Below, piece by piece: positions 4,594 to 36,230 of a DNA stretch of 54,798 bases (the stretch's first letter is position 1; each line of letters opens with the position of its first letter). The notes beneath the pieces are model-generated. The model was given only the letters and a program-made list of their open reading frames with translations. It made no database searches and had not been told where the DNA came from. The position numbers and the translations under genes are program-made. The stretch lies in assembly GCA_905233285.1 (NCBI GenBank), contig CAJODY010000016.1, positions 1 through 54,798 on the forward strand. The letters are read 5' to 3'. The stretch comes from an uncultured Bacteroidaceae bacterium (lineage in GTDB: Bacteria; Bacteroidota; Bacteroidia; Bacteroidales; Bacteroidaceae).

Positions 4594-6063
4594 ATGGCAA
4601 ATACTAATTTCTTTGCAGTTGACCTTGGTGCTACAAGTGGACGTACCATCTTAGGGTCAATAGTTAATGGGAAACTGGAGCAGCGTGAGCTTACCCGTTT
4701 CCCGAATACAATAATCCAGACCGGAGGGCATTTCTTCTGGGACATATTTGCTCTTTACAACGAGATTATAAAGGGTCTGAAGGTTGTGGCAGAAGAGAAG
4801 ATTGAGATTGCATCAATCGGTATCGATACATGGGGATGCGACTTCGTACTCATCGGCAAGGACGGTGGAGTGCTCCGCAATCCGTACTGCTATCGCGACC
4901 CTCATACAGACAACGCTATGGAGGAGTATTTCAAACTCATTCCGAAGGAGAAGGTATATGAGAAGACTGGTATCCAGTTCATGCAATTCAATTCCCTTTT
5001 CCAGTTGTCAACGTTGAAGAAGAACAACGACTCTGCTTTGGAGGGTGCCAATAAGATTCTCTTCATCCCTGATGCACTGATGTATATGTTGACTGGTGAG
5101 GCTGTATGTGAATATACAGTTCTTTCGACAAGTCAGTTGCTTGACCCGCGTACCAAGAAAATAGATAAAGAGTTGCTCGATGTCATCGGACTGAAGGAGA
5201 GCCAGTTTGGTCGTTATGTCAATCCTTCCGACAAGGTAGGAGTCCTCACCCCAGAGGTACAGAAGATGACAGGACTGGGCGCTGTTCCGGTAGTTGCTGT
5301 AGCTGGTCATGACACAGGTGCTGCTGTAGCTGCCGTTCCGGCACAGAACGAGAAGTTCGCATATCTGAGCTGTGGCACCTGGTCGTTGCTCGGTATAGAA
5401 ACCAAGGATGCCATCATTTCCAACAAGAGTTTTGAATACAACTTCACCAACGAAGGTGGCATCGAAGGAACAACCCGTTTCCTGAAGAATATCTGTGGCA
5501 TGTGGCTCCTGGAGCGTAGCCGTAAGGAGTTCAAGAATGCTCCTGAAAATGTGAACGTACTGAATGCAAGTGCTATGGAAGCTCCTGCATTCCGCAGTTT
5601 CATCTTCCCCGATGCTCCCGACTTTGCCAATCCTGCAAGTATGATTGATGCTATCCAGAACTATTGCAAGAAGACTGGCCAGCCGGTTCCTGAGACACAT
5701 CAGGAAATAGCACGTTGCATTTTCGAAAGTCTTGCAATGCGTTACCGTCAGGTAATCGGTTATCTGAAAGATCTGGCTCCGTTCCCAATCGAACGGCTCC
5801 ATGTCATCGGCGGCGGTGTTTGGAACTCGTTCCTCATGCAGTTTGCTGCAAACTCCACAGGTCTGCAGGTTGTCACCGGTCCTATCGAAGGTACTGCTAT
5901 CGGTAATATCATGCTTCAGGCAAAGGCTGCCGGACTGGTAAGCGATATGTTCGAGATGCGTAAGATTATCGCTAATTCGATAGAGATGAAGACTTACAAT
6001 CCACAGGACACTGCTGCCTGGAATGCCGCATACGAGAAATATCTCAAAGTAACTAAATCATAA
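4594..6063 (+). CDS. rhaB: Rhamnulokinase
   Basis: Rhamnulokinase phosphorylates L-rhamnulose to L-rhamnulose-1-phosphate using ATP. The 489-residue protein is an FGGY-family sugar kinase, with the N-terminal ATPase signature FFAVDLGATSGRTILGSI, the sugar-binding segment SIGIDTWGCDFVLI, and the second domain VPVVAVAGHDTGAAVAAVP and LSCGTWSLLGIE. A late glycine motif, HVIGGGVWNSFLMQFAAN, completes the nucleotide site. The frame is intact over the full family length, unlike rhaA and rhaT downstream. It sits 13 bases after the GH51 gene and 33 bases before rhaA. Confidence 0.95.
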   Translation: MANTNFFAVDLGATSGRTILGSIVNGKLEQRELTRFPNTIIQTGGHFFWDIFALYNEIIKGLKVVAEEKIEIASIGIDTWGCDFVLIGKDGGVLRNPYCYRDPHTDNAMEEYFKLIPKEKVYEKTGIQFMQFNSLFQLSTLKKNNDSALEGANKILFIPDALMYMLTGEAVCEYTVLSTSQLLDPRTKKIDKELLDVIGLKESQFGRYVNPSDKVGVLTPEVQKMTGLGAVPVVAVAGHDTGAAVAAVPAQNEKFAYLSCGTWSLLGIETKDAIISNKSFEYNFTNEGGIEGTTRFLKNICGMWLLERSRKEFKNAPENVNVLNASAMEAPAFRSFIFPDAPDFANPASMIDAIQNYCKKTGQPVPETHQEIARCIFESLAMRYRQVIGYLKDLAPFPIERLHVIGGGVWNSFLMQFAANSTGLQVVTGPIEGTAIGNIMLQAKAAGLVSDMFEMRKIIANSIEMKTYNPQDTAAWNAAYEKYLKVTKS

Positions 6064-33703: not shown

Positions 33704-35239
33704 ATGGCAAAGAAAGCACTTCTTATGATTCTCGACGGATGGGGAATCGGCGACAAGGGAAAAGGTGACGTCATCTATCAGACTCCCACTCCCTACATGG
33801 ACTATCTCAACGCAACCTACCCACACTCCGAACTCCAGGCCAGTGGTGAAAACGTGGGCCTGCCCGACGGACAGATGGGTAACTCCGAAGTCGGACACCT
33901 CAACATCGGTGCCGGACGCATCGTTTATCAGGACCTCGTAAAGATTAACCGCGCATGTGCCGACAACAGCATCCTCAAGAACCCCGAAATCCAGTCGGCA
34001 TACGGCTATGCTCAGAAGACCGGACACTCCGTCCACCTCATGGGACTCACCTCTACCGGTGGCGTACACTCCAGCTTCGACCACATCCTCAAACTCGTTG
34101 ACATAGCAAAGGAATACGGAGTGAAGAACTGCTTCGTCCACTGCTTCATGGACGGACGCGACACCGACCCCAAGTCGGGTAAGGGATTCATCGCCGACCT
34201 CCAGCGCCACATCGACGAGGTAGGCGTAGGAGCCATCGCTTCCATCATCGGACGTTTCTATGCAATGGATCGCGACAAGCGTTGGGACCGCATCAAGGTA
34301 GCCTACGACCAGCTCATCGAGGGCAAGGGTCGCAAGTGTACCGATATGGTCGAAGGCGTTCAGTCGTGCTACGACTCCCACACCGAGGAGCACAAGAACA
34401 CCGACGAGTTCATGGAGCCACTCGTAAACGCAAATGTTGACGGACGCATCAAAGAGGGCGACGTAGTCATCTTCTACAACTACCGCAACGACCGCGCCAA
34501 GGAACTCACCATCGTGCTCACCCAGCAGGACATGCCGGAACAGGGCATGAAGACCATTCCGGGTCTCCAGTACTACTGCATGACTCCTTACGACGCCAGC
34601 TTCAAGGGCGTACACATACTCTTCCCGAAAGAGAACGTTGATAACACACTTGGCGAATACATCTCAAGCCTCGGACTCAAGCAGCTCCACACGGCAGAGA
34701 CAGAGAAATACGCACACGTCACCTTCTTCTTCAACGGCGGACGCGAAGCTCCGTTCGAGGGCGAAGACCGCATCCTCGTCAACTCTCCTAAGGTGGCAAC
34801 CTACGACCTCAAACCCGAGATGTCAGCCTTCGAAGTAAAGGACAAGCTCTGCGAAGCCATCAAGACTGGCAAATACGACTGGATAGTCGTTAACTTCGCC
34901 AACGGCGACATGGTAGGCCACACAGGCGTATATCCTGCAATCGAGAAGGCCGTCGTAGCCATCGACCAGTGTGTACACGACGTAGTCGAGACAGCAAAGC
35001 AGATGGACTACGAGACCATCATCATCGCCGACCACGGAAATGCAGACAACGCACTCAACCCCGACGGCACTCCGAATACAGCCCACTCCCTCAACGCCGT
35101 TCCGTTCATCTACGTAACAGAGAACAAGAACGCCCGCGTAAAGAACGGAGTGCTTGCCGACGTCGCACCTTCCATCCTCCACATTATGGGACTTCCACAG
35201 CCCAAGGAGATGACAGGCAACGACCTCATCGAAGATTAA
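33704..35239 (+). CDS. gpmI: Cofactor-independent phosphoglycerate mutase
   Basis: GpmI interconverts 3- and 2-phosphoglycerate in glycolysis and needs two manganese ions. The 511-residue protein shows [11 protein letters not shown] at the N-terminus, the phosphorylated serine Ser61 in [16 protein letters not shown], the substrate segment [26 protein letters not shown], and the C-terminal metal site [15 protein letters not shown]. Length and order are standard. A strong terminator follows. The codons are unusually rich in third-position C, as expected for a highly expressed gene. Confidence 0.97.
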
Positions 35240-35241
35240 AT

Positions 35242-35270
35242 CATTGACCATTGAACATTGACCATTGATG
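35242..35270. repeat. Heptamer tandem repeat after gpmI
   Basis: CATTGAC, CATTGAA, CATTGAC and CATTGAT follow without gaps, a 7-base period, starting three bases after the gpmI stop and ending before the terminator. Confidence 0.75.
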
Positions 35271-35389: not shown

Positions 35390-35421
35390 TTTGGAATATA
35401 AAAAACAAACATGTACTTTTG
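35390..35421 (+). promoter_or_regulatory. Promoter of the candidate structured RNA
   Basis: TTTG at 35390-35393, a 20-base spacer, and TACTTTTG at 35414-35421: both boxes match the Bacteroidetes consensus exactly. Transcription should start at about 35425-35428, right where the first hairpin of the RNA begins. No coding start lies within 230 bases downstream. Confidence 0.8.
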
Positions 35422-35425
35422 TAGC

Positions 35426-35600
35426 GCATTAAGTTTTAAATTAATGCATTTTGCTCAATCGCTCTCGAATCACCACCTCGAAATGATGCGAGCAAAAGAA
35501 TATACATTGGGAACGTGCCGTATATGGCGCGGACTTAACCCATAGTATATTCGGCTTGTGGTGAGCCAGAGAGCGTATGGCGAGGGTCTGCGCTTTTGTT
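35426..35600 (+). ncRNA. Candidate structured RNA of unknown class
   Basis: Several perfect stems lie behind an exact promoter. They are: GCATTAA/TTAATGC (35426-35432 with 35441-35447); CGCTCTC/GAGAGCG (35460-35466 with 35569-35575); CACCAC/GTGGTG (35471-35476 with 35558-35563); GAATATAC/GTATATTC (35498-35505 with 35545-35552); TGGG/CCCA (35508-35511 with 35539-35542); CGTGCC/GGCGCG (35514-35519 with 35526-35531, one G-U). TTTTGCTC (35449-35456) also pairs perfectly with GAGCAAAA (35490-35497), which crosses the first long stem as a pseudoknot or competes with it. The 3' end is T-rich (35594-35605). It could be a free RNA or the leader of the next gene. It is not a tRNA or tmRNA by eye. 6S RNA is an alternative, but the internal bubble is lopsided for that class. 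Confidence 0.5.
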
Positions 35601-35660
35601 ATTTAAGGCAGTTGCGCAGAAAAAATGCAATATTGTACAACAACTTAAATAATAGTGATT

Positions 35661-36230
35661 ATGAAAACAAAACTTTTATTTTTAATACTGGCTTTTACTG
35701 TTATGAGTATGAGTAGTATAGCTCAATCTATTGTAAACTTTCATGTAACTGAAGATGGAACATTTAAAACGAGCGATGGTGCAGACTTTGTTATTGTAAC
35801 ATATGAAGGAAAAGATGCCCATCAGATATTTCAAGAACTTGCTGCAAATGTGGGGTCGATTTATAACAATCCATCAAAAGTGATGTCTGTCGTTGATGAT
35901 ATTTCTATCAAAATCCGGGCATTAGATGATTTTCTTACAAATAGTACGATGGGAATTCCCGTTGGGACGTGGCGAGGTTACTACCAACTTGAATTTAGAA
36001 TAAAAGATGGACGTGTCCGCGTTGAAGCACCTCTTATAGAGCCGTATTTCCATGATTCCAACTATACAAAACCAAATAAAAGTTATACAAAATATGCAAA
36101 AGGACTTTTCAAGAATGGCGAAGTTAAAGACAACAAGAAGAAAGAATATTATAGGCTTAATTATATGATGAATAGCACAATCAACGCAATACTTGGAAGT
36201 ACAAAGACCAAAGAAGAAATAGATTGGTAA
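35661..36230 (+). CDS. Small secreted protein, DUF4468-like at best
   Basis: A 189-residue protein with a signal peptide (MKTKLLFLILAFTVMSMSSIAQ). An upstream in-frame GTG at 35655 is less likely as the start. The mature part has one alpha/beta domain: VNFHVTEDGTFKTSDGADF, then KDAHQIFQELAANVGSIY, and a basic tail. The layout recalls the DUF4468 TBP-like domain found in Bacteroidetes secreted proteins, but I am not sure of the assignment. The gene is markedly AT-richer than gpmI, with many A/T-ending codons, suggesting transfer. It lies 60 bases behind the candidate structured RNA, and no separate promoter is evident. Confidence 0.65.
   Translation: MKTKLLFLILAFTVMSMSSIAQSIVNFHVTEDGTFKTSDGADFVIVTYEGKDAHQIFQELAANVGSIYNNPSKVMSVVDDISIKIRALDDFLTNSTMGIPVGTWRGYYQLEFRIKDGRVRVEAPLIEPYFHDSNYTKPNKSYTKYAKGLFKNGEVKDNKKKEYYRLNYMMNSTINAILGSTKTKEEIDW

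Follow-up and report, generated by a model that had tools for sequence, protein, structure and literature searches.

Transcription-attenuating riboswitches combine a structured 5′ domain with a strand common to an antiterminator and a terminator helix and with a U run, and type III toxin–antitoxin loci join the pseudoknot repeats of ToxI, a terminator and toxN. The RNA described here, found in a 54,798-nt stretch of DNA (the window) from an uncultured Bacteroidaceae bacterium, is like the former in its shared strand, its predicted terminator with a U run, its place in a 5′ untranslated region and its several copies per genome, but differs from them in having no known ligand, no conserved unpaired pocket that we could see and downstream genes that share export, not a pathway. 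Like type III toxin–antitoxin systems, its loci run from promoter to pseudoknotted RNA, putative terminator and then gene; unlike ToxI, the RNA is normally a single unit of ~170 nt, and the downstream proteins are mostly of exported type and belong to many families. No ToxN-like endoribonuclease is among the Pfam and PADLOC matches listed (25 of 41 and 25 of 27 families, respectively) for 87 downstream proteins, and the window's own downstream protein does not fit a type III toxin, as it begins with a signal-peptide-like sequence and matches only DUF4468, weakly.

Closer in host range are the Bacteroidetes or Bacteroidales RNAs Bacteroidales-1 (RF01693), 6S-Flavo (RF01685), Bacteroides-1 and Flavo-1, as described in the 2010 survey by Weinberg (PMC2864571). 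No match to any of these families was found in the window, nor to the RNA when 60 related loci were scanned, 40 of them at gathering level and 20 at E ≤ 0.1. Candidate structured RNAs from the human microbiome, as excerpted from PMC8040213, also resemble the leader RNA in that some are Bacteroidetes-only and terminator-like, but the examples in those passages differ from it, being 40-132 bp long and lying near other genes, and the supplementary candidates of that source may overlap with ours. The leader RNA was not surfaced by full-text literature searching, the reach of which ends before supplementary motif lists, nor was it found in the accessible portion of PMC8632094, and the accessible portion of PMC11109978 makes no mention of Prevotella or Bacteroid-.

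The RNA family is absent from Rfam 15. The window had no match at the gathering threshold, the RNA region produced only chance-like matches at E ≤ 10 (the best, at 0.78, to a microRNA family), 40 related loci showed nothing overlapping the RNA at gathering level (two tRNAs lay elsewhere in these loci), and 20 loci of a second subfamily (type II, below) had no match at E ≤ 0.1. An initial annotation of the window, made from its letters alone, had held that a strong Rfam hit would remove the novelty of the RNA; cmscan matched no family, so no such hit does. The same annotation had raised a divergent form of 6S RNA, which we reject on the Rfam scans, on copy number (up to 11 per genome) and on the regular position before genes for proteins of exported type. 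A search of the window's own genome with RF01685 gave no match, but as control genomes likewise gave none, it carries no weight either way.

The region at 35390-35660 sits between a gene at 33704-35239, which we name as a putative gpmI from the initial annotation and from its own sequence, and a gene from 35661 for a 189-aa protein of exported type. Its features are as follows:

35390-35421, + strand: Bacteroidetes-type promoter (−33 box TTTG at 35390-35393, 20-base spacer, −7 box TACTTTTG at 35414-35421)
35426-35432 with 35441-35447, + strand: 5′ hairpin P1, at the predicted transcription start
35449-35456 with 35490-35497, + strand: pseudoknot helix P2, 8 bp, exact (TTTTGCTC/GAGCAAAA), conserved in sequence
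35460-35466 with 35569-35575, + strand: helix P3, 7 bp, crossing P2
35470-35476 (TCACCAC) with 35558-35564 (GTGGTGA), + strand: helix PK1, 7 bp, its 3′ strand being the loop of a short hairpin
35498-35505 with 35545-35552, + strand: outer helix of P4, 8 bp
35508-35511 with 35539-35542, + strand: inner part of P4, 4 bp
35508-35531, + strand: strand a and hairpin P5
35514-35519 with 35526-35531, + strand: hairpin P5 (a·b), 6 bp including one GU
35526-35544, + strand: strand b (GGCGCGGACTTAACCCATA), complementary to both a and c
35576-35594, + strand: strand c (TATGGCGAGGGTCTGCGCT), 3′ strand of the predicted terminator helix b·c
35594-35605, + strand: U-rich stretch after strand c
35610-35614 (AGTTG) with 35641-35645 (CAACT), + strand: possible hairpin P6, seen by eye, just before the start region
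35661-36230, + strand: gene proposed to be led by the RNA, encoding 189 aa with a signal-peptide-like N terminus and a weak DUF4468 match

Both boxes of the promoter are exactly where the initial annotation had put them, with a spacer of exactly 20 bases, and transcription from a Bacteroidetes-type promoter is expected to start ~5 bases past the −7 box, which places the predicted start at the foot of hairpin P1, the first stem, as that annotation had also predicted. Every stem that it had named is present in the window, and its perfect 8-base pair (P2) is exact and crosses P3 and PK1; one of its nested pairs, PK1, measures 7 bp and not the 6 given. Folding of 35423-35597 yields −63.5 kcal/mol, compared with −45.5 ± 4.1 kcal/mol for dinucleotide shuffles (z = −4.43; 0 of 200 shuffles as low), and the comparative support for the structure, given below, is far stronger than this folding energy. 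The annotation missed that strand b is complementary to strand c, which is itself followed by a U-rich stretch. As strand b is also complementary to the 5′ strand of P5 (a), a and c compete for it. Directly after gpmI, at 35242-35268, lies a ~27-base repeat that recurs, sometimes in overlapping tandem units, in the window's own genome and in two others (G001 and G048).

Homologues in the genus came from searching the DNA of 61 genomes, the window's own and 60 relatives; one match (L017, G021:C8) was left out as unrelated by eye, being a different leader that resembles a cobalamin riboswitch. A covariance model built from 16 sequences (R1) found 96 copies in 28 of the 45 genus genomes, with up to 11 in a single genome (G020), and matched 10 of 198 sampled genomes of the order at E ≤ 0.01, 7 of them credible after the loci were read; the matches in G222, G199 and G219 (L067-L069) do not look like copies. 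The initial annotation's proposal to look for homologues in related genomes was thereby borne out across genus and order. Most of the analyses below use a set of 102 copies, comprising the window copy and 101 R1 copies from 100 flanked loci (98 distinct, some of them orthologues). A second model built from 66 sequences (R2), for which few candidates per genome were scored, matched at least 28 of 393 order genomes and at least 17 of 207 genera, including the window's own, and, in a sample of the phylum, at least 3 of 395 genomes, namely the window's own and two from another family of the class.

From this wider search we read 26 loci (24 of the 37 R2 matches in the order and 2 outside it), which had z scores against swapped strand pairs of −12.0 for P3/PK1 and −10.0 for b·c; the 16 most divergent still had −9.4 and −8.2, with controls at −0.6 and −0.2. 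An ATG-initiated open reading frame (ORF) of at least 60 aa began within 200 nt in 20 of the 26, and the architecture was also recognized by eye in G186:C17 (L073), G072:C1 (L074), G099:C69 (L260), G253:C15 (L262) and G195:C12 (L263). In named genomes, a pattern scan picked out 44 loci; every one belonged to Prevotella, Xylanibacter or a record with Bacteroidaceae, Prevotellaceae or Bacteroidales in its title, many were of ruminant-gut origin, and the carriers include the cultured organisms Prevotella sp. ne3005 and Xylanibacter brevis ATCC 19188. As for a phage or plasmid element, which we rejected, a loose pattern matched 7 viral contigs, none of which scored with the model; the window copy had no DNA match in phage or plasmid collections, a search that a diverged family could escape.

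The promoter recurs with the RNA. In 84 of the 102 copies, a −7 box of the TAnnTTTG type (a few variants allowed) precedes the RNA by no more than 16 nt, compared with 7 of 404 control windows, and 61 of these 84 also have TTG in the −33 zone; the pattern is missing from the other 18. At the opposite end, the site of the possible hairpin P6 carries a GTTwGTG motif in 35 of the 102 copies (28 with the 3′ part as well; control stretches, 0), whereas the window copy has a variant and not GTTwGTG itself. In many copies (for example, L092, L113 and L125) the putative P6 has the form GTTAGTGC...TTAAC/CTAAC and stands between the predicted terminator and the start codon.

Compensatory changes were assessed by comparing the duplex energies of native and swapped strand pairs among 80 copies less than 80% identical (L162, L166, L167 and L168 were omitted from the duplex and energy tests, and further rows were dropped by identity); swapping leaves relatedness in place, and off-target segment pairs are the fair control. 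Seven helices stood out, with z scores of −39 for the outer helix of P4, −29 for P3, −21 for PK1, −15 for P1, −14.5 for a·b, −11.6 for b·c and −5.6 for P2, compared with −2.0 to +3.2 for other segment pairs, except for P2b–P4b (−23), a segment that overlaps P4a. At 70% identity (58 copies), the seven helices kept the same order, from −29.5 for P4 down to −5.3 for P2. The 5′ strand of P3 also showed a weak local pairing (z = −3.2), which disappeared with a wider segment (P3a–P2b, z = −0.2) and was rejected.

Column statistics from an alignment of 66 sequences (A4; L105, L137, L158, L160, L162, L166, L167, L168, L174 and L175 were excluded before representatives were picked), which was fitted to the body structure and hence is biased towards it, gave 85.8% of cells paired (shuffled, 58.6%; 0 of 500 as high), a covariation of 0.748 (shuffled, 0.230 ± 0.008; 0 of 500 as high; slid versions ≤0.137) and two-sided changes in 37 of 38 pairs, which is mildly above shuffles (mean 34.0; 7 of 500 as high). 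By helix, paired cells amounted to 95.2% in P1 and 92% in P3 (two-sided changes in 7 of 7 pairs each), 99.8% in PK1 (6 of 7 pairs, the remaining one invariant), and 95.8% and 73.7% in the outer and inner parts of P4. The count for P5 is poor (38.2%), a misalignment that we put down to differing loop lengths, so that support for P5 comes from the duplex test, and the GG..CC stem flanking the PK1 loop is weak (62.6%). The b·c columns, which lie outside the fitted structure, were 94.0% paired (shuffled, 89.8%), with two-sided changes in 6 of 8 pairs and a covariation of 0.347 (shuffled, 0.249 ± 0.012; slid versions ≤0.165).

Compensatory changes among homologues, seen in both duplex energies and alignment columns, thus back P1, P3, P4 and PK1 strongly and P2 modestly, and also support the two helices with a common strand, a·b and b·c. 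The pseudoknot of the initial annotation, for which it had proposed a covariation test, is overwhelmingly supported in PK1 and P3 and modestly in P2; its alternative idea of a switch between two folds also gains backing, but the decisive alternatives are a·b and b·c, a pair it had not seen. Wobbles are asymmetric, with 107 GU and 24 AC cells in P1, P3, PK1 and P4, 72 GU and 7 AC among the 520 cells of b·c in fixed alignment columns, and 41 GU and 0 AC in a b·c core that was itself chosen by a GU-favouring score. This asymmetry implies selection on the + strand transcript and favours RNA over a DNA hairpin or recombination site, a reading that we rejected. On the comparison of copies, then, the helices, the double use of strand b and selection for a + strand RNA are established.

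A base-pairing descriptor, which made no match in 396 kb of block-shuffled sequence, gave 102 distinct matches in the loci, 76 of them known copies and most of the other 26 in loci from the scan of named genomes. A second subfamily, type II, has a PK1 that reads TCGCCAA with TTTGGCGA and was first seen in L082, L121 and L198; in each of L082 and L121, R1 had found one copy besides the type II match. A strict type II pattern occurs in 26 of the 45 genus genomes and, across the order, in 36 of 295 genomes and 26 of 184 genera, with no match to the reversed pattern in either set. Among 59 distinct type II copies taken from 60 fetched loci, covariation gave z scores of −25.2 for P3 (59 copies) and −15.4 for b·c (the 53 with a U run); PK1 was fixed by the search pattern and provides no evidence. 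An ORF lies within 220 nt in 51 of the 59, 34 of these being export-like, and a promoter box is present, under looser placement rules, in 28 and absent from 31.

The RNA has a regular genomic setting. The 102 copies were found from the RNA only. In 92 of them the first ORF downstream lies on the same strand, in 9 on the opposite strand, and 1 has none, whereas the first ORF upstream gives 54, 46 and 2; an ORF lies 10-178 nt downstream (median 62) in 95 copies, 74 of them export-like, and 7 have none. Of the 71 distinct adjacent ORFs that are 100 aa or longer, 60 have an export-like N terminus by a crude pattern, compared with 110 of 381 others from the same loci (P = 9 × 10−19). That the RNA might be the leader of the gene at 35661, one of the roles raised by the initial annotation, is supported by this strand bias and by the strong enrichment of export signals. 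The position in a 5′ untranslated region before a same-strand gene (92 of 102 copies) is that of a transcription attenuator, as is the combination of a terminator-like helix and U run with an alternative helix through a common strand. A promoter in most copies and a place before genes mostly for exported proteins, as predicted from their N termini, are likewise established by the comparison.

The downstream proteins do not share a pathway. When they were cut to 450 aa and near-identical starts were removed, 87 remained, which matched 41 Pfam families with no common pathway (for example, Big_2 in 8, outer-membrane barrels in 3 and secretion tails in 3, with several families, including dockerin and SusD-like, in 2 each); PADLOC matches to defence genes among the 87 were only scattered. 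The window's own protein matched DUF4468 at E = 0.0013, below the Pfam cut-off. Within the genus, proteins related to it (35% identity in G034, 26% in G021) occur in genomes in which R1 found no copy, so the RNA does not track that gene. Genes resembling EcoRI-type adenine methyltransferases lie behind the RNA at three loci (L097, L237 and L255) in three genomes and two genera; PF13651 was matched by one downstream protein, taken as that of L097, and the other two were assigned by similar protein starts.

Leaders and genes also occur in differing combinations. Three genomes have a common RNA–gene unit (L110, L114 and L153; 97-98% identical), with the likeness beginning ~60 nt upstream of the RNA in L153 and ~220 nt upstream between L110 and L114, and the gene of L110 occurs in 3 of the 45 genomes, with the RNA in front of it in all three. 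L083 and L091 have a common 400-nt upstream flank and RNA (92%) followed by a different gene, and L083 and L088 have a common gene with a different flank. Judging from these alignments, genes have evidently been exchanged behind shared leaders, probably by recombination.

Several copies depart from the standard arrangement. In L259 (G403:C3, ~5230-5750 of the reverse complement) we saw by eye at least three divergent tandem copies behind a single promoter and with no adjacent gene; these copies all have a b·c helix and a U run of their own, and a fourth may lie ~1 kb further on. The 3′ part is missing in L162, L166, L167 and L261, which stand in front of genes; L261 (G009:C62) and L167 retain promoter and 5′ half but lead directly into the gene, without P4, b or c, and we read them as decayed or rewired leaders. 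In L168 (929-1120, − strand) a 24-nt stretch of the start region repeats the 5′ strand of P3/PK1, and in L257 (1501-1711, + strand) a 17-nt stretch does so, possibly as a second, translational arm; L267, a type II copy with the repeat motif, has the same downstream protein start as L168. In L155 and L157, from −913 to +19 of the RNA, a small gene pair resembling a nucleotidyltransferase and HepT-type toxin–antitoxin is flanked on both sides by the promoter and P1, in two identical copies of 103 nt, and L119 has a similar flank without the pair.

The b·c helix has the properties of an intrinsic terminator, with a mean native duplex energy of −22.0 kcal/mol over 80 copies (swapped pairs, −18.8) and a T fraction of 0.67 in the 12 positions after c, compared with 0.30 further downstream (102 copies). 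A U run directly after a helix is typical of terminators. The need for strand b to pair with a as well as with c would account for the conserved sequence of b and c while P3 and P4 vary freely. In P3, PK1 and P4, one strand lies upstream of b and its partner between b and c, and all three helices therefore cross b·c. In the mechanism that we propose, RNA polymerase would start at P1, the 5′ part would fold into a pseudoknotted body (P2, P3, PK1 and P4), and a would pair with b inside P4. As long as the body holds, b would be occupied as c emerges, the terminator would not form and the gene would be transcribed; with the body unformed or opened, a b·c helix of ~17 bp and its U run would stop transcription before the gene.

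We infer from this arrangement that b·c terminates transcription and a·b prevents termination, that these helices are mutually exclusive in the cell, and that some signal chooses between them and sets the direction of the response, although b·c and the body might instead coexist as a larger pseudoknot. By calculation, the body is more stable than the alternative of upstream fold and terminator, with a mean margin of 8.4 kcal/mol and only 3 of 97 copies in which the terminator state comes out lower, so the resting state may be ON, in which case a signal might open the body, and switching would need a signal or kinetics. By eye, conserved nucleotides outside the helices are few in divergent members and no conserved unpaired pocket was seen across them, which makes the RNA unlike a classical ligand aptamer; if it is not a metabolite, the signal might be physical, or a protein, and linked to the cell envelope. 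NusG paralogues were considered as partners, with matches in 41 of the 45 genomes, but their distribution, read beside the table of R1 copies, showed no evident pattern; the matches could include factors, and nothing ties them to the RNA. The apparent ability to form either an internal hairpin or a transcription stop suggests a kind of RNA switch not known before.

On balance, we think it probable that the RNA is a cis-acting leader of the gene at 35661 and belongs to a large switch family in which a pseudoknotted antiterminator competes with an intrinsic terminator. The initial annotation had also offered a free small RNA, and an independent transcript of ~170 nt from P1 to the b·c terminator, acting in trans or binding protein, with the gene reached by leak-through or from its own promoter, would make use of the same promoter and predicted terminator, of the stable, compact, pseudoknotted body and of the tandem array without an adjacent gene seen by eye in G403; termination at b·c would indeed release ~170 nt. 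We nevertheless rank it second and consider it unlikely, because a same-strand ORF comes first downstream in 92 of the 102 copies (median distance 62 nt in 95), because the genes behind the RNA are strongly enriched for exported proteins and because a plain small RNA has no need of the double use of strand b.

Less likely still is a leader whose main effect is on translation or on the stability of the mRNA, with the body and the 3′ strands of P3 and PK1 exposing or hiding the start and with b·c as a structural arm. The start-codon regions of L168 and L257, which could pair with those 3′ strands, speak for it, and Bacteroidetes are reported generally to lack Shine–Dalgarno sites (PMC3155529), so that structure in the 5′ untranslated region could matter. 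Against it, such a repeat stands out only in L168 among the 102 copies and in L257 among 26 further loci (L066 is borderline) and, by motif, in L267, L304 and L305 among 59 type II copies, and the U run right after c is typical of terminators; as a general mechanism, the start-codon repeat was rejected, with a mean score of 5.0 over 101 copies against 5.2 for control stretches. About equally improbable is a mobile promoter–leader module that spreads before accessory genes, its structure serving spread or a recombination hot spot and regulation being secondary. RNA–gene units and flanks are swapped among L110, L114 and L153 and among L083, L091 and L088, and a number of copy pairs share only the stretch from promoter to start codon, but plain homologous recombination through the leader accounts for the swaps, the GU over AC asymmetry indicates selection as RNA and not as a DNA hairpin, no recombinase beside the copies was noticed in passing, and the window copy is without a DNA match in the phage and plasmid collections (which a diverged family could escape). 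Many-copy regulons of c-di-GMP riboswitches are known elsewhere, and by analogy a second-messenger riboswitch of this type for surface proteins could explain the many copies per genome before diverse surface or exported proteins; we give this reading almost no weight, and c-di-GMP is unlikely as the signal, as a GGDEF match (PF00990, E ≤ 0.001) was found in 0 of the 45 genomes (control genomes, 8 of 14 positive) and Rfam gave no match.

The switch family of cis-acting leaders that we favour would have a broader form, which we advance tentatively and rate below an even chance: a new class of transcription attenuators, pseudoknotted and responsive to a signal, that comprises two or more subfamilies and probably several hundred copies in Bacteroidales (an extrapolation from the genomes sampled) and acts as one switch for much of each cell's exported-protein repertoire. 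In that one-switch reading, and with the same reserve, the sequence would have diverged almost completely while the fold and the logic of the three strands a, b and c were kept. Bacteroidales are major bacteria of the gut and rumen, and to our knowledge little is known of RNA-based control in them. If the proposal is true, this many-copy leader family would be a regulatory layer of the exportome unseen by Rfam-based annotation, and the copies in cultured Prevotella sp. ne3005 and Xylanibacter brevis ATCC 19188 make the leader RNA a concrete, testable object. Gene swapping behind a shared leader may, in addition, help to account for the movement of such genes between species.
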